Shown piece after piece: positions 11,426-60,521 of a stretch of DNA of 64,000 nt. Position numbers and translations under genes: made by a program. Numbering within the stretch: position 1 is the stretch's first letter; each line of letters opens with the position of its first letter. The notes beneath the pieces were generated by a model that saw only the letters and a list, made by a program, of their open reading frames with translations, was not told where the DNA came from and searched no databases. This stretch comes from Thioploca sp. GTDB taxonomy: Bacteria > Pseudomonadota > Gammaproteobacteria > Beggiatoales > Beggiatoaceae. The DNA lies in contig DAOUSL010000004.1 of assembly GCA_030627235.1 (NCBI GenBank), positions 1-64,000 of the forward strand. The letters run 5' to 3'.

Positions 11426-14272
11426 TTAACTTGTTATTCCATTAATAAACGTATCTACAAATCCCAAAATCTTATTTAAAATTTGGTCGCTTAATTTTTT
11501 GCGTTTTAACACGGAAGGTTTTTCACCTTCAATTAGTTCCAGTATCTCGTCTCGCAATGGTTCTCTTTCTGCGAACATGTAGTCATTAATCAATTTTTGA
11601 GTTTTTTCTTTTGATAAATTTTCATTTGTTATCAATTGTTTAAAAGATTTTTGTCGCTCTTTATCCCAAAACTTATCAAATTCTTGTGATATATTATCTT
11701 CATTCTTAATTTCAGGTAAGTTTTTAGATATAAATTTTTCTATCAATACTCGTTTGCTTCTTAGAGTAACTTCTGTATTTAATAAATTATGAATATCTTT
11801 TTCAGTCTGCTCTACATCTTTTTCAGAATTGGATTTTAGTTTAATAAGTAACTGAATTATATAATTTACATTAATTTCATCACGGTGGATTAATTCCAGC
11901 TCAAAATCAACATCTTCCAAAATAGAAACTTTCTCTTTATTGCTTTTTACTTTATCATGTAAATCGAGATATTTGCTTTTGTAATCTTCAAAAAATTGCT
12001 CGTCCATTGCCAAATCTTCCCATTTGAAATCAGCAAAGGCGTTGAGAATATTTTTAATTCGCATTATCTGTCTGAATATAGTGATAAATTTTAATTCTTC
12101 ATTTTCAGTTTGCAAGTCATTAACACTATTTACTGTTGGAGATATTGCTGATAATTCGACAAATGCATCGTTAAATTTTTTGACATGTGTTTCATAAGGT
12201 TCCATGATAATTACCTCAATAGCTTCTTTATTGCTAAATAAGGTAATTGCATCGTCGGTGGCTTGTTTAAGATTGCGGAAAACAACAATATTGCCCTGTG
12301 ATTTTTGTTCGTTAATTATTCTATTAGTTCTTGAATATGCTTGAATTAAACTGTGATATTTTAGATTTTTATCGACATATAAAGTGTTAAGCGTTATGCT
12401 GTCAAAACCAGTTAGAAACATATTTACCACCAGTAAAATATCGATTTCTCGTTCTTTTACTTTTTTGGAAATATCGTTGTAATAATTATAAAATGATTGG
12501 CTGTCTCTAGTTGAAAAATTTGAGCCAAACATTTGATTATAATCTACAATAAACTCATCCAGTTTTTCTCGGCTATCTCGCTGCATTCCATATAATGCCC
12601 TTGTTTCTTCAACCACTGAGACTTCTTCGGGAATAAAACCATTTGCATCGGCATCTTCTTCATTGGCAACATAAGAAAAAATGGTCGCAATTTTCAAATT
12701 ATGCTGGCCTTCTTGCTTTTTCCTTTGCAGAATATCATAATATTTTATCAATGTTTTAATGCTGCTAACGGCAAACATGCCAGTAAATTCTCGATTATGA
12801 GTTTTTCGATCATGATTGGCTAGAATATAATCCGCTATTTTTTCTAATCTTTTTGGTGATTCCATCAATTCTTTGGTATCAATGGCCTCTACTTCAATAT
12901 CTATTTCGGTAGCTGTTGCTTTCTTTTTGTATCTACCAACATATTCAACTGAGAATTTTAAAACATTTTCATCTTTTATAGCATCGGTAATGACATATTT
13001 ATGTAAGGCTTCGCCAAATAGTTCTTTGGTAGTTCTTTTGCCTAAATCATTTTTAAAGGCATTTTCTGCAAAAATTGGTGTGCCAGTAAAACCAAACAAT
13101 TGAATGTTGCGGAAGAATTTTTTAATACGGTTGTGGGTTTCGCCAAATTGGGAACGGTGGCATTCGTCAAAAATGAAGATTAAACGTTTATCTTGCAGTT
13201 TTTCCATTTTGGCTAAATATTGCGTTTTGCTGATGGCTGTATTTAGTTTTTGAATTGTGGTGACAATGAGTTTGGTATTGTTGGAAAATTGTTTGACTAG
13301 GGCTTTAGTGTTGTCAGTTCCATCAATACTGCCTTCGCTAAAACTATTAAATTCTTTAGTAGTTTGATAATCCAAATCTTTACGATCCACCACAAAAACT
13401 ACTTTTTCAACTTCGGGCAGATTCATGATTATTTGACTAGCTTTAAAGGAAGTTAAAGTTTTGCCTGAACCAGTGGTATGCCATATGTAACCGTTTTTGT
13501 TGCTGTTTTTTACTCGATCAATTAACGCTTCTACTGCATAATATTGATAAGGACGTAGCACCATTAATATTTTATGAATTTCGTTTAACACGATGTATTT
13601 ACTAATCATTTTAGAGAGATGGCAAGGTTCTAAAAAATCGCTGGTAAAACCATTAATAATATTAGTTAAACGGTTGTTTTCTTTATCTGTCCAATAAAAA
13701 GTTTGTTTGAAGGATTGGTTGCGGTTGTTGGCATAGTATTTGGTGTTTACGCCATTGCTGATGATAAATATTTGAATATATTGGTATAAAGCTGAGTTTG
13801 AACCGAATGAGTGGCGTTGATAACGGTTAATTTGATTAAATGCTTCTTTTAATTCAAGTCCTCTGCGTTTAAGTTCTATTTGTATTAATGGTAGGCCATT
13901 TATCAATAAAGTTACATCGTAGCGATTTTTATATTTACCGTCGATAGTGACTTGGTGAGTAACTTGATATTGATTTTGACACCAATGTTCGGTGTTTAAA
14001 AATTCAAAGTAAAGGTCTTTGCCATTGTCACGGATAATATGTTGTTTTTCTCGTAGAATTTTTGATTTTTCAAAGATAGAACCTTTGGTAAGTAAGTTCA
14101 TTACTTTTTTAAATTCTGACTCTGAAAAGATAATATTATTGTGTTTTTCTAATTGCTGTTTTAGGTTGGCAATGAGTTCTGGTTCATTTTTTATTTTTAC
14201 CAAAGCATAACCTAATTCTTGAAGTTGGGCAATTAGTTGATTTTCTAATACTTGTTCGGGTTGTTTACTCAT
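11426..14272 (-). CDS. hsdR: Type I restriction endonuclease subunit R
   Basis: 948 aa; IWHTTGSGKTLTSFKAS Walker A, FIFDECHRSQFG, GFTGTPIF; N-terminal nuclease YDVTLLINGLPLIQIELKRRG. Confidence 0.95.
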   Translation of the reverse strand: MSKQPEQVLENQLIAQLQELGYALVKIKNEPELIANLKQQLEKHNNIIFSESEFKKVMNLLTKGSIFEKSKILREKQHIIRDNGKDLYFEFLNTEHWCQNQYQVTHQVTIDGKYKNRYDVTLLINGLPLIQIELKRRGLELKEAFNQINRYQRHSFGSNSALYQYIQIFIISNGVNTKYYANNRNQSFKQTFYWTDKENNRLTNIINGFTSDFLEPCHLSKMISKYIVLNEIHKILMVLRPYQYYAVEALIDRVKNSNKNGYIWHTTGSGKTLTSFKASQIIMNLPEVEKVVFVVDRKDLDYQTTKEFNSFSEGSIDGTDNTKALVKQFSNNTKLIVTTIQKLNTAISKTQYLAKMEKLQDKRLIFIFDECHRSQFGETHNRIKKFFRNIQLFGFTGTPIFAENAFKNDLGKRTTKELFGEALHKYVITDAIKDENVLKFSVEYVGRYKKKATATEIDIEVEAIDTKELMESPKRLEKIADYILANHDRKTHNREFTGMFAVSSIKTLIKYYDILQRKKQEGQHNLKIATIFSYVANEEDADANGFIPEEVSVVEETRALYGMQRDSREKLDEFIVDYNQMFGSNFSTRDSQSFYNYYNDISKKVKEREIDILLVVNMFLTGFDSITLNTLYVDKNLKYHSLIQAYSRTNRIINEQKSQGNIVVFRNLKQATDDAITLFSNKEAIEVIIMEPYETHVKKFNDAFVELSAISPTVNSVNDLQTENEELKFITIFRQIMRIKNILNAFADFKWEDLAMDEQFFEDYKSKYLDLHDKVKSNKEKVSILEDVDFELELIHRDEINVNYIIQLLIKLKSNSEKDVEQTEKDIHNLLNTEVTLRSKRVLIEKFISKNLPEIKNEDNISQEFDKFWDKERQKSFKQLITNENLSKEKTQKLINDYMFAEREPLRDEILELIEGEKPSVLKRKKLSDQILNKILGFVDTFINGITS

Positions 14273-14797
14273 TTGTCTTAACCTTGATTCATTTGATTTG
14301 CTTGATTGCCTTGATTTTTTAAAGAATTATTGTGGACTCTTTTGAATTGTAGGCTTTTTGCTCCAAAATTTATTAGTAATCCAATCTCAACGTTGTATAC
14401 TTCTAAATAATTCATTGCTTGTGCTAAGTGTACATTTTCTAGGTTAATTTGTGCTTTAAGCTCAACCATAATGCAATTTTCAACAAAAAAATCAACTCTT
14501 CTTCCACCAATTCTATTACCTTTGTAAAAAATATCCATTTCGTATTCACGCTGAAAATTTAAACTGATAGAATTCATTTCTATCTCTAAGGCACGTTGGT
14601 AAATTACTTCCTGAAATCCATTTCCCAAAATACGATGAACTTCCATTGAAGCTCCTATTATCTTTCCAGTAATATCCTGATATTTCATTTCTAAAGCCTC
14701 ATTAATTTTATTAAATCAAATCAAGCAAATCAATCAACAAATCAAAAAAATAAATCAAGGTAATCAAGCTAATCAAGTGAATCAAGGTTAAGACAAA
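14273..14797. mobile_element. Candidate GxxExxY insertion unit bounded by ~40 bp inverted repeats
   Basis: Left end (reverse complement) AAATCAAGGCAATCAAGCAAATCAAATGAATCAAGGTTAAGACAAA versus right end AAATCAAGGTAATCAAGCTAATCAAGTGAATCAAGGTTAAGACAAA: three mismatches. Confidence 0.6.
14278..14688 (-). CDS. GxxExxY family protein (PDDEXK_3-like)
   Basis: 136 aa; GASMEVHRILGNGFQEVIYQRALEIEM (GxxExxY), RVDFFVENCIMVELKA; C-terminus NQGNQANQMNQG encoded by the inverted-repeat units. Confidence 0.88.
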   Translation of the reverse strand: MKYQDITGKIIGASMEVHRILGNGFQEVIYQRALEIEMNSISLNFQREYEMDIFYKGNRIGGRRVDFFVENCIMVELKAQINLENVHLAQAMNYLEVYNVEIGLLINFGAKSLQFKRVHNNSLKNQGNQANQMNQG

Positions 14798-16020
14798 CAA
14801 AACATCCGTTGCAGCAATCCTTTTTTCCACAGTTCAGCTTTTTTAATTTGGCTATCAACTCTGTTTATTTTTTCGTCTAGCTTGGTGAGGAAATTGGCTA
14901 TTTTGGTTTGTTCGGGGAGGGTGGGAAATACTATTTTTAAAGTTTTATATTCTTCCGCATTAATGCCCGGTTGCCCTGAACGCATTGACATTATTTTAAC
15001 CCACTTCTGATATGAGGATATTAAAGTTTGAGCATAAATAAAAAATGGATTGCCTTCTATAATTGAAAAACGAATTAAAAAACCAGCAAAGTAAAGTTTG
15101 CCATCATCTATACTGTATAGGTAACTTTTACCCACACTTGCTCCAGTTCTTGCAAATACAACATCTCCTTTTTTTAATTTATATTTTTCTTCAAGTAATC
15201 CATCTGGTGATGTCAGAGGATTTGGAATATATTTTCTGGAATTTTCATTAATATCAGTAATCCGAATATATTTATTCTCGCCATCAAAAGCTAGTGCTTG
15301 AGCGTTCATTCCGTACATTACATTATCACAAACCTCCCTCAACCTCTTCTCCTCCCACGCAGGAAAATAATTACCATTCTCATCTTTAAACCTAATTTCT
15401 TGACTAAAGATTTTTTGCATTACTCCTTTTTTGTACTCTTCCAAAAGGGCTTTCTTTTGTTTTAGTTGGGATATTTTTTTGTCAACTACTGTTAGGAAAT
15501 TGGCTATGCGGGTTTGTTCCAAGAGGCTTGGGAAAGAAATTTGAATATTTTTAATTAAACCGCTACTTAAATTTTTCTGTCCACCATCATTACTTAACTT
15601 TCGTATTTCATTATATTTTCTTACAAGATTTTGGAATAAATAATCTGTATTAAGGTTGCCATTAGTAATAATTGCACAACATGCTTGATTTGTAGATGCT
15701 TCAATACCAAGAATAGCAACTTTACCTCTAGTTTTACCTTGGCCGTACATTGCCATCAAAAGAGTTTCTTTTGGAAATAATTTTGCAGATGAACTTGCAA
15801 GCCCTTTATTTGTTATAAATTCTTCTGTATTGTTAATAGTATTGAAATTAATTAATGTCGTTGAAATCCAAGGAATATTTCCATTCCAATATTCTTTTTT
15901 ATATCTACTTGGAGTTCCTCCTGATGTTATCTTTCCAACATCACCCAATCTCTTCCTTTCCCACTCCCCATCAAACTCAGGAAATCTTAACTCAGGTATT
16001 TTATTTTGTAAATTTTTCAT
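14788..16020 (-). CDS. hsdS: Type I restriction specificity subunit S
   Basis: 410 aa, two target-recognition halves (RKRLGDVGKITSGGTP; EEKRLREVCDNV) each ending in LPEQTKIANFLT-type conserved regions. Confidence 0.93.
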   Translation of the reverse strand: MKNLQNKIPELRFPEFDGEWERKRLGDVGKITSGGTPSRYKKEYWNGNIPWISTTLINFNTINNTEEFITNKGLASSSAKLFPKETLLMAMYGQGKTRGKVAILGIEASTNQACCAIITNGNLNTDYLFQNLVRKYNEIRKLSNDGGQKNLSSGLIKNIQISFPSLLEQTRIANFLTVVDKKISQLKQKKALLEEYKKGVMQKIFSQEIRFKDENGNYFPAWEEKRLREVCDNVMYGMNAQALAFDGENKYIRITDINENSRKYIPNPLTSPDGLLEEKYKLKKGDVVFARTGASVGKSYLYSIDDGKLYFAGFLIRFSIIEGNPFFIYAQTLISSYQKWVKIMSMRSGQPGINAEEYKTLKIVFPTLPEQTKIANFLTKLDEKINRVDSQIKKAELWKKGLLQRMFCLS

Positions 16021-16040
16021 TATTTATTAAGTTTTTATAG

Positions 16041-16069
16041 ACCTGTCAGGTTTTGAAAACCTGACAGGT
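16041..16069. repeat. Palindromic repeat (family ACCTGTCAGG-N-CCTGACAGGT)
   Basis: acctgtcaggttttgaaaacctgacaggt between hsdM and hsdS; also at 28809 and 28978. Confidence 0.9.
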
Positions 16070-16090
16070 ATTGGTTAGTTGTTATGATAT

Positions 16091-17656
16091 TTAAAAAGGC
16101 GTACCAATATTAAGTTCCTTACAAAATTTTACCAATTCATCATCAGTATCCTGCATCGAAATATCAAGTATTTGCAATTCCTTAGCCACAGCCTCAATAT
16201 CCACTGCTTCCTCTTCTTCAAAAGTATCCACATAACGAGGAATATTTAAATTATAATCATTTTCCGCAATTTCTGCCAAACTAGCCACATAACTATACTT
16301 ATCCTCAGCCTTCCGTTCCCGATAAGTTGTAACAATCTTTTCAATATCAGCAAACCGCAACATATTCTGAGTCTTAACCTTCTCAAAATGCTGACTACTA
16401 TCAATAAAAACAATATTCTCAGGATTTTTCCGAAATTTCTTAAACACTAAAATACAAGTTGGAATTGACGTACCATAAAAAATATTAGCCGGCAACCCAA
16501 TCACCGCATCCAAATAATTACAATCCTTAATCAAATACTTACGAATATGTCCCTCAGCCGCACCCCGAAATAAAACCCCATGTGGCAACACAATCGCCAT
16601 AATTCCATTTTCTGCCAAATGATAAATCATATGCTGCACAAAAGCATAATCCGCCTTACTCTTAGGAGCCAACTTACCATATTGACTAAATCGATCATCA
16701 CTCATAAATAACTGATTAGCACTCCACTTAGCTGAAAATGGAGGATTTGCCACAATTGCATCAAACTGAAGCTCAATATGCTGTGGATGTTCTAAAGTAT
16801 CCTCTTGTTTAATATTAAATTTACGATAATGAACATCATGCAAAATCATATTCATTCGAGCCAAATTATAAGTAGTACGATTAAGCTCCTGCCCATAAAA
16901 ATTACTTACTTCCTCAACTTCTTTCGCAACTCGCAATAACAAAGACCCTGAACCACAAGTAGGATCATAAACCGATTTTAATCTAGTTTTCCCAATTGTC
17001 ACCAGCTTTGCCAAAACCATACTCACCTGTTGTGGTGTATAAAACTCCCCAGCCTTCTTCCCAGCTCCACTAGCGAATTGTCCAATTAGATATTCATAAG
17101 CATCACCCAACACATCACGTTCACCATTTTCCAGCTCAAAATCAATCTTATCAAGATGCGAAAGTACCTTTGCAATCAACTTATTCCTTGCTTCAGGAGT
17201 CTTTCCAAGCTTGGTACTATTTAAATCCATGTCCTCAAACAGATGATCAAAATCCTCCTCACTTTCCGTTCCCATCGTAGAAAGTTGGATATTGTTCAAA
17301 ATTGCTTGCAAATCCTCCAAAATAAAATTAGATTCACCATCCCCATTACCTCTTTTAACTACTTCTCTAAATAATTCGGATGGTTTTAGAAAATAACCAA
17401 GTTTTTCCAGAGATTCATCCTTAATAGCCTCAATATACTCTAACCCTTGTTCACGATCTTCATAAATTTCCTTATATTTAATTCCATCAGTTTCCAAAAT
17501 AGCATCAGCATAAAGCTCCATTTTTTCAGCAAGATATTTATAGAAAATAAACCCTAAAATATAATCCCGAAATTCATCAGCATCCATTTTACCTCGCAAC
17601 TCATTGGCTATATTCCAAAGTTGCTGCTCTAACATTTTTTTTTGTTCTTCACTCAT
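16091..17656 (-). CDS. hsdM: Type I restriction modification DNA methylase subunit M
   Basis: 521 aa; GEFYTPQQVS, DPTCGSGSLLLR, DAIVANPPFS. Confidence 0.96.
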   Translation of the reverse strand: MSEEQKKMLEQQLWNIANELRGKMDADEFRDYILGFIFYKYLAEKMELYADAILETDGIKYKEIYEDREQGLEYIEAIKDESLEKLGYFLKPSELFREVVKRGNGDGESNFILEDLQAILNNIQLSTMGTESEEDFDHLFEDMDLNSTKLGKTPEARNKLIAKVLSHLDKIDFELENGERDVLGDAYEYLIGQFASGAGKKAGEFYTPQQVSMVLAKLVTIGKTRLKSVYDPTCGSGSLLLRVAKEVEEVSNFYGQELNRTTYNLARMNMILHDVHYRKFNIKQEDTLEHPQHIELQFDAIVANPPFSAKWSANQLFMSDDRFSQYGKLAPKSKADYAFVQHMIYHLAENGIMAIVLPHGVLFRGAAEGHIRKYLIKDCNYLDAVIGLPANIFYGTSIPTCILVFKKFRKNPENIVFIDSSQHFEKVKTQNMLRFADIEKIVTTYRERKAEDKYSYVASLAEIAENDYNLNIPRYVDTFEEEEAVDIEAVAKELQILDISMQDTDDELVKFCKELNIGTPF

Positions 17657-34636: not shown

Positions 34637-36325
34637 TTATTTAGTAAAATATAAATATAACAATATCAAATTGCTAATAGCAAAAAATATAGTCGTGCGT
34701 TTCCAAAATGTTATTGGATTACGTTCTCGTAAAGGAAGTGAACGAGGATGAGAAAGGTCGTATAAAAATTCTGATAATGTTTCATAACGTCTAGTTGGAT
34801 AAGGATTAACCGCTTTCTTTAGAGAACTATCTAACCATAGTGGCAAGTCTTGATTATAACGGCAAGCTGAAATATATTTCAATTTATTCGGATCCATTTT
34901 AGGATCATCACCATAAGGCAATTTGTTGGTCATCATCTCATAAGCAATCACTCCTAAAGAAAAAATATCAGAGCGGGTAGTACCAGTATGACCTTGAAAA
35001 TATTCTGGAGCAGTATAATTGCGAGTTCCTAATAAATTAATCCTTTCAATTGGTGTACTAATTTCTTCAAGACCAGCAATTTTAGTAGAACCAAAGTCAA
35101 TCAACTTAATAGTTCCATGTTTATCAACCATGATATTTTCTGGTTTTAAATCTTGATGTAGCATTTCCATCCGATGGAATGCACGTAAACCAGAAGCAAT
35201 TTGTTCAATAATAGCTCTCACTTCACTCAATGGTGGTTGAGTATTCTCTTCCATCCACTCTCGTAAAGTATGACCTTGAATATGCTCAGAAACATAGTAT
35301 AAACACTGACGATGCCGTTTATGTTCATAAACTTTCATCACATGCGGGTGAGTCAAACGTTTACCAATCCATTCCTCATGCAAAAATCTATCAATATAAC
35401 CTGGATCGTCATCGTAATTAATAGAAGGAGTTTTTAATACGACTTGTTTCTGAGTTTCCTCATCTAAGGCTAAATATACTTGAGTACGATTACTTGCATA
35501 AAGTTCTCGTAATATATGATAACCATCTAAGCGCATACCCTGCGATAATGGTGGAGGAAAAGGTAATTCAGTTAATTTTTTATAAACTGCGTTAGGGTCT
35601 TGAGTTGGTAAGCCATCAATTCTTACTATTTGACAAGTTAAATTATCAGGACTTTCATTGGCAAAAGCGGTTGAAACTATTTTTTGGCAGGCTTTTTCTA
35701 AATCTGGTAAATTTTCATGAATGATATCAACAATGACTTCACTACTAACATATTCATGAACTCCATCTGTAGTAAACAGAAATAAGTCGTCTACATCTAT
35801 GCTAGTGCTACTATAATCTATATCTAGGTGTAATTCAATTCCCATCGCCCTAGACAGGTATTCTTGCCCTTGTGCCACCCTAACATGATGATCCTTAGTT
35901 AAACAGTTTAGTTCTTTGCCTCTTAAATGCTGAATTCGTGAATCACCAATATGGAATACATGACCAGTATTTGATTTGATAATCAAGGCACTAAAGGTAG
36001 TAACTAAACCTTTATTCGTTCCATATAAATGATAACCTTGTCCATATAACCAACGATTAAGAGCAGTAAGAATTTTTTGAGCAGCAGTTTTTACACTCCA
36101 AGATTCTGGAGTACTAAAATAATCATTAAGGAAACCTTTAACACTATATTCACTAGCTTTATCTCCTGCTTCACTACTACTTACTCCGTCAGCAATTACA
36201 GCTGCTATTCCTTTAGTAGTTAGCAACGGCTCAGGTGGTGTCATCACCCCAAAAGAGTCTTGATTTTTAGCTTTACGTCCTGCTTCTGAATAGCTACCAG
36301 TTGTAATTGAAAGTGTGCTTGGCAT
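34637..36325 (-). CDS. Bifunctional PP2C phosphatase / Ser-Thr protein kinase
   Basis: 562 aa; N-terminal PP2C (AVIADGVSSSEAGDKASE, GDSRIQHLRG), C-terminal kinase (LHQDLKPENIMVDKHGTIKLIDFGS), C-terminal TM. Confidence 0.93.
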   Translation of the reverse strand: MPSTLSITTGSYSEAGRKAKNQDSFGVMTPPEPLLTTKGIAAVIADGVSSSEAGDKASEYSVKGFLNDYFSTPESWSVKTAAQKILTALNRWLYGQGYHLYGTNKGLVTTFSALIIKSNTGHVFHIGDSRIQHLRGKELNCLTKDHHVRVAQGQEYLSRAMGIELHLDIDYSSTSIDVDDLFLFTTDGVHEYVSSEVIVDIIHENLPDLEKACQKIVSTAFANESPDNLTCQIVRIDGLPTQDPNAVYKKLTELPFPPPLSQGMRLDGYHILRELYASNRTQVYLALDEETQKQVVLKTPSINYDDDPGYIDRFLHEEWIGKRLTHPHVMKVYEHKRHRQCLYYVSEHIQGHTLREWMEENTQPPLSEVRAIIEQIASGLRAFHRMEMLHQDLKPENIMVDKHGTIKLIDFGSTKIAGLEEISTPIERINLLGTRNYTAPEYFQGHTGTTRSDIFSLGVIAYEMMTNKLPYGDDPKMDPNKLKYISACRYNQDLPLWLDSSLKKAVNPYPTRRYETLSEFLYDLSHPRSLPLRERNPITFWKRTTIFFAISNLILLYLYFTK

Positions 36326-45440: not shown

Positions 45441-46166
45441 ATGACTGAACATGATTCTCAAACGACCATGTTACAACAAGAAAAATTATTACAAGGTTTA
45501 GTTAGTTGTTTTACTGATTTAACTGATACTATGAAGAAAATTCAAACTGATAATGATCAGCGTGAAGAACTTCGTAAAGAAGAAATTAACAAGCTAGAAC
45601 AACAGATTAAATTACAAAAAGAATCGTTAGAGACTCAAGTTGAAATTCATAAACACCAAGTAACTCTTCAGAAGGAAGCAAATAAAAAATTAGTAATTTT
45701 ATCAATCCCAATAGGAATGGTTTTGTTGATATTAGCTATTATTATGTTTGGTTGGTTTTATTCTATGGTAGAAAATATGAATAATATGGCTACTTATATG
45801 AAAAGTATGGCTCCAGATATAAAAAATATGTCTAGTTATATGCGAACTATGTCACCAAATATAAAAAGTATGTCTAAAAATATGGGTAATATGACTATTT
45901 ACATGCGTACTATGTCTTATGATATGAATGCTATGTCTGGCGATATAAATGGCATGTCTGGTGATATGAAAGCTATGTCAGGCGATGTAAAACAAATGTC
46001 AAAAGATATGACTATAATGTCAAAAAACGTACATATTATGCGTAATGCAACAGTTTCTATGGATAGAGGTATGCAATATATGAAACATGATATGAATGAA
46101 ATGTCTAATACAATTTCCCCTGTTATGGGTGGTATTTTACCATTTATACCATGGAATAATCATTAG
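45441..46166 (+). CDS. Membrane protein with cytoplasmic-type coiled coil and ~17 Met-rich heptads
   Basis: 241 aa; N-terminal coiled coil, one TM (LVILSIPIGMVLLILAIIMFGWFYS), then (xMSxxMx)n repeats. Confidence 0.75.
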   Translation: MTEHDSQTTMLQQEKLLQGLVSCFTDLTDTMKKIQTDNDQREELRKEEINKLEQQIKLQKESLETQVEIHKHQVTLQKEANKKLVILSIPIGMVLLILAIIMFGWFYSMVENMNNMATYMKSMAPDIKNMSSYMRTMSPNIKSMSKNMGNMTIYMRTMSYDMNAMSGDINGMSGDMKAMSGDVKQMSKDMTIMSKNVHIMRNATVSMDRGMQYMKHDMNEMSNTISPVMGGILPFIPWNNH

Positions 46167-46345: not shown

Positions 46346-46918
46346 ATGATAAAAATATTCGGTAATATTATTGAAAAGCCAGATGAAAGTGAAGGATATC
46401 TGGTAATTGGATTTTCGCCAAATTCAATACCTATCCAACAAAGATGGAGAAACAATGGGCTTTCAGCTGATTTTTTGGCTGATTATATTATTTCATTTTT
46501 TCCAAAAACTAAAAATAATCCAAATGATATTGATAAACATATTGAAATTAAAGGTATTGTAAGTTATGTTGCAAATGAGTTATTGGAAAATGCTATGAAA
46601 TTTAGCGATAAAAACTGGTCATTTCCCATTAGTATGCAACTACAATTATACGAAAATAGTATCGGATTTTTTGTAACTAATAGTATATTGGATAAATCGG
46701 TAGCAAAATTTCAGACTTATATTCAAACAATACTAGGCTCTGATACTGAAGCATTATATATAGAGCAATTAGAAAAAAATGCTACAAATGATAATAGTAC
46801 AGATTCGGGTCTTGGTTTACTAACTATGATAAACGACTATACAGCTAAAATTGGTTGGAAATTTGAAGTTAATAATCAAAGAACCATTGTAACTACAATA
46901 GTTCAACTTTCTATTTAA
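46346..46918 (+). CDS. slr1658-superfamily-like regulator (HATPase-like)
   Basis: 190 aa; IKGIVSYVANELLENAMKFS (N-box-like), DSGLGLLTMINDYTAKIGW. Confidence 0.65.
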   Translation: MIKIFGNIIEKPDESEGYLVIGFSPNSIPIQQRWRNNGLSADFLADYIISFFPKTKNNPNDIDKHIEIKGIVSYVANELLENAMKFSDKNWSFPISMQLQLYENSIGFFVTNSILDKSVAKFQTYIQTILGSDTEALYIEQLEKNATNDNSTDSGLGLLTMINDYTAKIGWKFEVNNQRTIVTTIVQLSI

Positions 46919-46921
46919 TAT

Positions 46922-47266
46922 ATGGAAATTAAAAACGAAGATTACTATATTAGTTATAATAATGAAACAACAACTATAAATTGTGAAGGATCGTTACGAT
47001 TAGGTGGGATTACAGATTATGTTCCAGTTGTAGAGCTATTTAATAGAGTGCTTGATATGGAACCGCCTTTAATCACTTTTGATATACGACAATTACAATT
47101 TCTGAATAGTTCAGGGATTAATGTACTGTCTAAATTTGTTATAAAGGTACGTCAGAAAAAAAATGTTCAAATGGTAGTACAAGGTTCAAAGCAAATTCCA
47201 TGGCAAGGTAAATCCTTAAAAAATTTGAAACGATTAATGCCATCTTTACAGTTAGAATGGATGTAA
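46922..47266 (+). CDS. slr1659-superfamily-like STAS-type regulator
   Basis: 114 aa; ITFDIRQLQFLNSSGINVLSKFVIKV; directly follows the HATPase-like gene. Confidence 0.7.
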   Translation: MEIKNEDYYISYNNETTTINCEGSLRLGGITDYVPVVELFNRVLDMEPPLITFDIRQLQFLNSSGINVLSKFVIKVRQKKNVQMVVQGSKQIPWQGKSLKNLKRLMPSLQLEWM

Positions 47267-58774: not shown

Positions 58775-59758
58775 TCAAGCAACTGATTGATAATAAATAT
58801 TTTGAGGGTGTTTGCCTTCACTAAAAAAATACCAACGTTCTGCAAGCAAACCTAAATACTGAATTACAAAAGCAGCTATAGTCAAATATAAAGTAAATAC
58901 TCCAGATATTGCTAATATAAGCATAAAGATTGGAACTGGAAAAACTAGTAATAGAAAAATATTTTTTACTACTGTCAGTTGAGTTGCAGATTTATTATGG
59001 AAAAATTCACGAGTATTAAAAGAGCCACACATAGCTCCTTGAGATTTTTGAGCAATAACTGTATGGCGTATTCCAATAGCTGTCTGAAGATTTGATTTGG
59101 AAACAATGTTACGGTTGCGCAATATTGTAGCAGCTCGAGTTATAAAGGCTGTAATAGTTAGCACAATAGCCCATAATACATAAAAGCCAACCACATCAGC
59201 TTCCATAATTACTGAAAATACTGCAGCTAAAGTAAAACCGGATGCCATACCAAATAATATATAATTAATAACTGTCAATGGGTTATACCATTCTTGCATA
59301 AATTTTACACTAGCATAAATCATGCTGGTACATATAAATAAAGCAAAAGTACTTAATGTGGCAAGCATACCAATAACTAAAGATAAATCAACTGATTGAG
59401 TCTTAGTTATAGAAAATAATATATGATTCCAATCAAAGTAATGAATACAACCATAAAATGCGATAAGTAATATTGTAGCTGGTAAAATTATAACTTCACG
59501 AGATAACCAAGAAGTACGCCATTTACTTGCGGAACGCCAAGCTCGCATAGGACGGCCTAAATGGAAAAAAGAAGCAAATAAACCTGCTATTAAAAATCCA
59601 ACTGCAAGCAAACTACCCAACGCATAAAAACTTTGACTATCTTGAGCTGGTAATAATTCCATCATGGAGTAAACTTGTCCACTATAAAGAGCCAAAAATA
59701 AACCTTGGCCTATTCCTATTAGAGTGGTTAAAAAAATTACGGAAAATGCTGGATGCAT
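58775..59758 (-). CDS. DmsC/SoeC-family membrane anchor subunit
   Basis: 327 aa; MHPAFSVIFLTTLIGIGQGLFLAL, FHLGRPMRAWRSASKWRTSWLSREV. Confidence 0.85.
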   Translation of the reverse strand: MHPAFSVIFLTTLIGIGQGLFLALYSGQVYSMMELLPAQDSQSFYALGSLLAVGFLIAGLFASFFHLGRPMRAWRSASKWRTSWLSREVIILPATILLIAFYGCIHYFDWNHILFSITKTQSVDLSLVIGMLATLSTFALFICTSMIYASVKFMQEWYNPLTVINYILFGMASGFTLAAVFSVIMEADVVGFYVLWAIVLTITAFITRAATILRNRNIVSKSNLQTAIGIRHTVIAQKSQGAMCGSFNTREFFHNKSATQLTVVKNIFLLLVFPVPIFMLILAISGVFTLYLTIAAFVIQYLGLLAERWYFFSEGKHPQNIYYQSVA

Positions 59759-59786
59759 AAATAACCTCTGTATTAATTATCAATAA

Positions 59787-60521
59787 TTACCAACTTGAAT
59801 AGATATCATCCAATGTTTGTTGATCTTTTGATGGTTCTGGTAGTAGACCTTCTTTTTTAAGTGGATTATCAACTCGTTGTAATTCATCCTCATGGATTTT
59901 GAAATGTGTTTTACGGCGAGGTAAATAATGATTAGAAGGGTTAGTACCCCATTCTGGCATCAATTGATAACCACCACTTTCTCGAATTAATTGTGATACT
60001 TCAGAATCAGGATCATGAACATCTCCAAATAAACGAGCATTAGTTGGACATGCCAATACACAAGCTGGTTTACGTTCTGATTCTGGTAAAGTTTTATCAT
60101 AAATCCGATCTACACATAAGGTGCATTTTTTCATGACTTTCTGTTTCTGATCAAATTCACGAGTGCCATAAGGACAGGCCCAAGAACAGTATTTACAACC
60201 AATACATTTATCATAATCAACTAATACAATACCATCTACTTCACGCTTATAACTAGCTCCAGTTGGACAAACTGGTACACAAGGTGGATTTTCACAATGG
60301 AGACAGCTTTTTGGAAAATGTACAGTTTCAGTATTAGGAAATGTTCCTACTTCAAAGGTTTGTACTCGATTAAAAAATGTTCCAGTGGGATTAGCATCAT
60401 ATGGGTTAACATCTGACATTGGCCCAGCCCAACCAGAAGTATTCCATTCTTTGCAACTGGTTACACAAGCATGACAGCCAACACATACATTAAGGTCAAT
60501 AATTAAAGCTAGTTGTTTCAT
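59787..60521 (-). CDS. 4Fe-4S ferredoxin subunit, DmsB/SoeB family
   Basis: 244 aa; four Cys clusters (CVGCHACVTSCK, CLHCENPPCVPVCPTGA, CIGCKYCSWACPYG, CTLCVDRI...CVLACPTNAR). Confidence 0.9.
   Translation of the reverse strand: MKQLALIIDLNVCVGCHACVTSCKEWNTSGWAGPMSDVNPYDANPTGTFFNRVQTFEVGTFPNTETVHFPKSCLHCENPPCVPVCPTGASYKREVDGIVLVDYDKCIGCKYCSWACPYGTREFDQKQKVMKKCTLCVDRIYDKTLPESERKPACVLACPTNARLFGDVHDPDSEVSQLIRESGGYQLMPEWGTNPSNHYLPRRKTHFKIHEDELQRVDNPLKKEGLLPEPSKDQQTLDDIYSSW

Follow-up and report, generated by a model that had tools for sequence, protein, structure and literature searches.

Beggiatoa-type bacteria, purple sulfur bacteria, and vent and lucinid symbionts store sulfur in periplasmic globules, and what holds and spaces these bodies and distributes them at cell division is the question on which the protein described here bears. 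The globules of such bacteria, whether periplasmic or located in invaginations, are enclosed within a protein coat (PMC10386293, PMC7356093, PMC6509183). The sulfur globule proteins (SGPs) SgpA–D, exemplified by those of Allochromatium vinosum and by ALG67575 of Beggiatoa leptomitoformis, are small secreted coat proteins rich in Gly/Asn/Tyr/Pro with a cleaved signal; the SgpA/B type is described by PF17228, and SgpD is predicted to be a coiled coil (PMC10386293). With respect to other storage bodies and organelles, PhaM/PhaF (PHB granules), AlgP (polyphosphate), and McdAB (carboxysomes) act wholly in the cytosol; PhaF and AlgP use histone-like parts to anchor their respective granules, PHB and polyphosphate, on the nucleoid (PMC13052382). 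Sulfur goes unmentioned in a 2025 review on bacterial organelle positioning.

The protein considered here is encoded in a 64,000-nucleotide stretch of a Thioploca sp. genome (NCBI GenBank assembly GCA_030627235.1, contig DAOUSL010000004.1), which we refer to as the window. It belongs to a family of methionine-zipper (Met-zipper) proteins that resembles the SGPs in its predicted periplasmic location and its specificity for sulfur oxidizers, whereas the window protein itself is membrane-anchored, helical, and Met-cored, and gave no match to PF17228 at E values up to 10. PF17228 genes nonetheless share a locus with one Met-zipper subfamily. The likeness to PhaM/PhaF, AlgP, and McdAB consists of Lys-rich tails in some orthologs, a ParA gene beside a sister subfamily, and the storage-granule setting. 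Unlike the cargo of those systems, however, that of a Met-zipper protein would lie across the inner membrane, and in the window protein both the Lys-rich tail and a neighboring ParA gene are absent.

Architecture of the Met-zipper protein

The gene, an ORF that begins with ATG, is carried by contig C151 of a draft genome (4.58 Mb) that has Beggiatoa and Thiotrichaceae as its named relatives, and its boundaries are exactly those listed in Table 1. The layout given in the preliminary description, namely a coiled coil followed by one transmembrane (TM) helix and then a zipper, is borne out, as a charged Leu/Ile helix precedes a single TM segment whose hydropathy peaks at residues 84–102. The zipper had been put at about 17 consecutive Met-centered heptads, which is right if slightly low: counting from residue 102 gives an unbroken run of 18 Met residues at an exact spacing of seven, the longest in the protein. 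The topology check proposed at the same time, made here by charge, places K/R more commonly on the N-terminal side of the TM helix in nearly all family members compared (50/55), and the topology predicted from these charges is N-in with a periplasmic zipper.

Table 1. Features of the Met-zipper gene and its product, in window coordinates
Feature	Coordinates	Strand	Basis
Met-zipper membrane protein CDS (241 aa plus stop)	45441..46166	+	ORF call, Met run, homologs
N-terminal region, predicted cytosolic, residues 1–82; charged Leu/Ile-core helix, Met-poor	45441..45686	+	M3 L10 before TM; AlphaFold2 pLDDT about 80–88 over residues 11–80
Single TM helix, residues 84–105	45690..45755	+	Hydropathy peak (3.0 at residue 84); K/R commoner on the N-terminal side in 50/55 members
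Met zipper, residues 106–219; 16 heptads, Met at every d	45756..46097	+	Register assignment; whole-heptad indels in 20/21 clade members
Conserved C-terminal tail EMSNTISPVMGGILPFIPW, residues 220–238	46098..46154	+	M221, S222, P227, M229, and P237 invariant across 17 clade members; family-wide tail pattern

Viterbi assignment shows that the region after the TM helix keeps one register without interruption through 16 heptads; d is occupied by Met in 16/16, and the composition at a is M10 I3 V2 F1 T1. The enrichment in Met is not a property of the whole protein, since the M:L ratio is 3:10 before the TM helix and 28:1 after it. All 18 heptads of the zipper are different words, and the repeat is therefore not the product of a recent DNA tandem duplication. 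The periodicity also exceeds chance: the 4.58 Mb genome contains 15 instances of six ATG at 21-base (seven-codon) spacing, 13 of them in the window gene and 2 in one paralog, as against 0 instances of the reversed control pattern.

Structure prediction, also among the checks proposed, agrees in part. The AlphaFold2 monomer model, built with 17 orthologs, contains helices at residues 4–122, 124–165, and 175–222 (mean pLDDT 69, pTM 0.22); pLDDT is 45–64 in much of the zipper and lowest at 165–177 and in the tail. This model is in keeping with a rod-like helical protein that may be kinked or folded as a hairpin. A Met-core coiled coil after the TM helix, as originally proposed, is favored by the register, the whole-heptad indels, and the conservation described below, and AlphaFold2 concurs on helicity, but with weak confidence within the zipper. 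A Foldseek search with the model gave no match, as is expected of a long low-confidence helix, and a PDB sequence search returned no solved relative, only one designed coiled coil and one weak match. No Pfam or NCBIfam model reaches its cutoff with the window protein. DUF1664 and DUF948, which describe long membrane-anchored helices, show a weak, coiled-coil-like similarity to it (E 1e-4 and 0.018), but the protein falls far under both gathering cutoffs (22.9 vs 34.6 bits and 15.6 vs 37.2 bits, respectively).

Conservation and definition of the family

Six orthologs can be aligned over their full length, with P90, M221, S222, P227, M229, G231, P237, and W238 invariant. Measured from the first zipper Met, the S-x-x-x-x-P-x-M tail lies 75, 82, 89, 103, or 110 residues away in 20 of the 21 clade members; as these values differ in steps of seven, zipper length varies among them by whole heptads only. 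Conservation of the repeats in homologs, on which the preliminary description had let its reading depend, is thus found.

A family profile built from 35 members collects 122 distinct proteins within the fetched loci, most of which end in a tail like S-x-P-M-x-F-M-N-x-F-x-P-W. Across these 122 members, Met pairs at a spacing of 7 reach 3.9 times the shuffled expectation, and spacings of 1, 2, 5, and 6 about 0.1 times. Among 55 members, the d position is Met in 75% and Leu in 8%, and the a position is Met in 48, Ile in 18, Val in 18, and Leu in 5%; before the TM helix Leu (7.0%) exceeds Met (4.8%). Because the core is Met-dominated after the TM helix while Leu outnumbers Met before it, the preference for Met over Leu is confined to the predicted periplasmic side. 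Cys amounts to 0.0% of the residues after the TM helix.

The window protein combines the features that define the family, namely a TM helix, Met heptads, and a Pro-rich aromatic C-terminal tail, and falls within a 20-tip clade (support 0.88) that contains no member of the locus type described below. Beggiatoa/Thiotrichales MAGs, symbionts of tubeworms and lucinids, and a single Chromatiales MAG account for the 24 named loci related to this clade, and sulfur storage is common to most of these hosts. On sequence evidence, the Met-zipper proteins constitute a real, conserved, and undescribed protein family that is strongly linked to sulfur oxidation; a literature search found no paper on a methionine zipper of comparable kind.

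Many paralogs of the family occur per genome, some of which adjoin CBS-domain or cache-domain proteins. In the window's own genome another Met-zipper paralog (G000:C359; L319 700–1862) adjoins a CBS-domain protein, a pair that recurs in L050 and L256. A further Met-zipper subfamily is found in genomes of 1.6–1.9 Mb, 3′ of a gene that is rhodanese-like as judged by N-terminal sequence only (L241, L243, L244). In a same-genus relative (G003; L047 8000–9253), a decayed Met-zipper remnant lies beside kdsC, its start region at 85% DNA identity, with indels, stops, and the zipper missing; the window gene is therefore dispensable, and the copy can be lost. A phage or plasmid origin was also considered and rejected: tblastn gave no match in either collection, and viral contigs matching the heptad pattern encode unrelated acidic or tandem-repeat proteins without Met-zipper architecture.

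Distribution among sulfur oxidizers

Among 369 Gammaproteobacteria genomes, a family profile threshold of E ≤ 1e-8 separates 82 carriers from 287 non-carriers. dsrA, counted at E below 1e-50 (119 genomes, seven of them with fragments under the curated cutoff), is present in 67/82 carriers and 52/287 non-carriers, and soxB in 69/82 and 80/287, respectively. One or the other gene was found in 76 of the 82 carriers vs 88 of the 287 non-carriers (odds ratio 29, p 4e-25) and, counted per GTDB family over 182 families, in 38/40 vs 43/142 (odds ratio 44, p 3e-14), these being presence/absence associations in which relatedness is only partly controlled, by the collapse to GTDB families. Moreover, dsrA is commoner in carriers even among soxB-positive genomes (60/69 vs 44/80, p 3e-5). 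Outside the Gammaproteobacteria, a 90-genome phylum sample yielded 23 further carriers, and dsrA was present in 4/5 of the carriers tested. The window's own genome (G000) has dsrA on another contig (C273, E 2e-175), consistent with a sulfur-oxidizing host.

As judged from gene content, the family is near-restricted to dsr/sox sulfur oxidizers. It is not needed for sulfur oxidation, since 88 non-carriers have dsrA or soxB, and co-occurrence with these genes does not demonstrate contact of the protein with sulfur. In terms of physical proximity, six genomes (G097, G333, G230, G092, G115, G091), which represent four GTDB families, have dsrA about 5–20 kb from family genes, with unrelated genes between; we regard this nearness as weak evidence.

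Gene neighborhoods

The neighbors of the window gene are kdsC-lptCAB, slr1658/1659, and lpoA, and not a sulfur globule locus; a search by composition found no SGP-like ORF within the 64,000-nt window. Directly 3′ of the gene, on the same strand (46346–47266), lie slr1658-type (NF052618, E 3e-76) and slr1659-type (NF047705) regulators. This module is named from cyanobacteria and is seen here in a Thiotrichaceae-like genome. It was not seen beside orthologs in the loci examined, and no fixed gene partner for the window clade emerged from the ortholog loci, whose neighbors are not conserved; in these comparisons genes were called mechanically, compared by BLAST, and annotated in small part. A globule-protein-like neighbor occurs in only one of about 20 window-clade members, Thiotrichales bacterium BB2 (L025/L060), in which a gene for a Gly/Asn/Trp-rich secreted protein lies tail-to-tail, 83 bp from the Met zipper; it has no Pfam match and misses PF17228.

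A sister subfamily resides in a locus that encodes a ParA-type ATPase, a TPR protein with one TM helix, in some cases DUF302, the Met zipper itself, and a dynamin-like GTPase; genes for DUF4412-like and MlaC-like proteins surround these. ParA shares a locus with a family member in 16 GTDB families, of which 9 are gammaproteobacterial and 7 are not, and the dynamin-like GTPase does so in 9. Directly upstream in the sister-subfamily loci are genes for secreted Gly/Asn/Trp/Tyr-rich proteins, of which those at eight loci from four GTDB families and two classes (L303, L315, L322, L326, L331, L345, L348, L355) score above the curated cutoff of PF17228, while the others miss it; none of the globule-like proteins matched an NCBIfam model. 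The arrangement of SGP, DUF4412-like, ParA, TPR, Met-zipper, dynamin, and MlaC-like genes is conserved in L303, L314, L315, L331, L345, L348, and L352–L356, which span many GTDB families. This locus evidence bears on the sister proteins and not on the window protein.

The nine Thiodiazotropha orthologs examined have a Lys/Ala/Thr/Pro-rich, histone-like N-terminal cytosolic tail, with 14–19 K/R vs 0–2 D/E in 60 residues. The first 60 residues of the window protein hold 9 K/R and 12 D/E, which is not a histone-like composition. By analogy with granule-attachment systems, the Thiodiazotropha tails and the ParA loci suggest two routes to the same end, one by way of ParA and the other by direct nucleoid binding.

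Proposed role and alternative explanations

We propose that the window protein is an inner-membrane tether or adaptor for sulfur globules that acts on the periplasmic side, a function to which we assign a probability of roughly 0.45. It is the simplest reading because a membrane-anchored periplasmic rod is found in the same organisms and one subfamily is encoded with coat proteins, ParA, and a dynamin-like GTPase. Specifically, the thioether-lined zipper and the tail would contact the periplasmic globule, either its polysulfane sulfur or its Sgp coat, a preference of the thioethers that we infer. The cytosolic domain would connect the protein to the cell interior, such that globules could be tethered, spaced, or helped into enclosure. 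In the locus subfamily the cytosolic partner may be ParA/TPR/dynamin, and in the Thiodiazotropha orthologs the Lys-rich tail could bind the nucleoid; the cytosolic part of the window protein is predicted to be a coiled coil that would use neither route. A broader version, which we consider rather doubtful, would make the whole family the transmembrane adaptor of an undescribed system for globule placement and enclosure. On the periplasmic side the thioether-lined zipper would recognize the globule, and at its cytosolic end the adaptor would engage ParA, the dynamin-like GTPase, or else the nucleoid; the window protein would be a member that works alone. The family and the sister ParA/dynamin/SGP locus supply named genes for the study of globule positioning. 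The zipper would, moreover, offer a naturally occurring coiled coil with methionine in the place of leucine, which bears on why thioethers might lie next to elemental sulfur.

The protein could instead be a generic structural or signaling coiled coil of the inner membrane (a stalk, dimerizer, or sensor partner) that is present in sulfur bacteria by descent, with the window copy possibly working with the slr1658/slr1659 regulators. Its helical architecture, the many paralogs per genome, those that adjoin CBS-domain or cache-domain proteins, and the same-strand regulator genes are compatible with such a role. We nevertheless find it unlikely, given that the association with sulfur oxidation persists per GTDB family, that the regulators do not recur beside orthologs, and that Leu, which ordinary coiled coils favor in the core, is nearly excluded from this one. 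That the zipper is a repeat or composition artifact without function is scarcely credible: the ORF is of low complexity and the same-genus relative holds a decaying remnant, but 18/18 heptads differ, and 122 distinct members from many families preserve the reading frame, the register, the tail, and the topology. For the family as a whole, this conservation refutes the artifact reading.

The preliminary description had suggested that a surface of this kind could be oxidation- or metal-responsive, and we found no support for either. Soluble Met-rich periplasmic peptides act as oxidation sinks in Azospira and Brucella (PMC8315932). The window protein, with 28 Met after the TM helix, is Met-rich and predicted periplasmic like MrpX/BcrX, and it might serve as a sacrificial methionine sink or redox switch whose residues are oxidized by reactive species and re-reduced by methionine sulfoxide reductase; oxidation would melt the zipper too. 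Over all genomes MsrP is indeed somewhat commoner in carriers (48/82 vs 111/287), but within sulfur oxidizers there is no link (46/76 vs 62/88, p 0.19), and the window's own genome, a 98.9% complete draft, has no strong match (best E 4e-6). Moreover, MrpX and BcrX are small peptides encoded with msrPQ, whereas the window protein is membrane-anchored with heptad-locked Met; a sink does not require core-locked Met, whole-heptad indels, or a conserved tail, and no msr or ECF sigma gene was recognized among the neighbors. We therefore judge this role improbable. Binding of Cu(I)/Ag(I), with facing core Met thioethers chelating the soft metal, is very improbable. The dense M-x2-M and M-x3-M spacing on the periplasmic side resembles Met-only Cu(I) sites, but placement at a and d buries the thioethers, a positions are freely Ile or Val, Cys is missing after the TM helix and His is sparse, and no metal-resistance, copper, or redox-stress gene was recognized among the recurrent neighbors, part of which were annotated. 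Taken together, the data favor sulfur oxidation and a role at sulfur globules, the best-supported reading, over an oxidation or metal response.

Other genes in the window

Elsewhere in the window, type I restriction-modification genes, including hsdM (E 2e-139), occupy 11429–17656, and interspersed with them at 14281–14688 is a GxxExxY gene (TIGR04256, E 3e-38). The protein encoded at 34640–36325 is a fusion of a PP2C phosphatase with a Ser/Thr kinase domain. At 58778–60521, a DMSO-reductase/DsrO/NrfC-like Fe-S subunit, with no equivalog above cutoff, is encoded beside a multi-TM protein, a pair that is possibly SoeBC-like and involved in sulfite oxidation.
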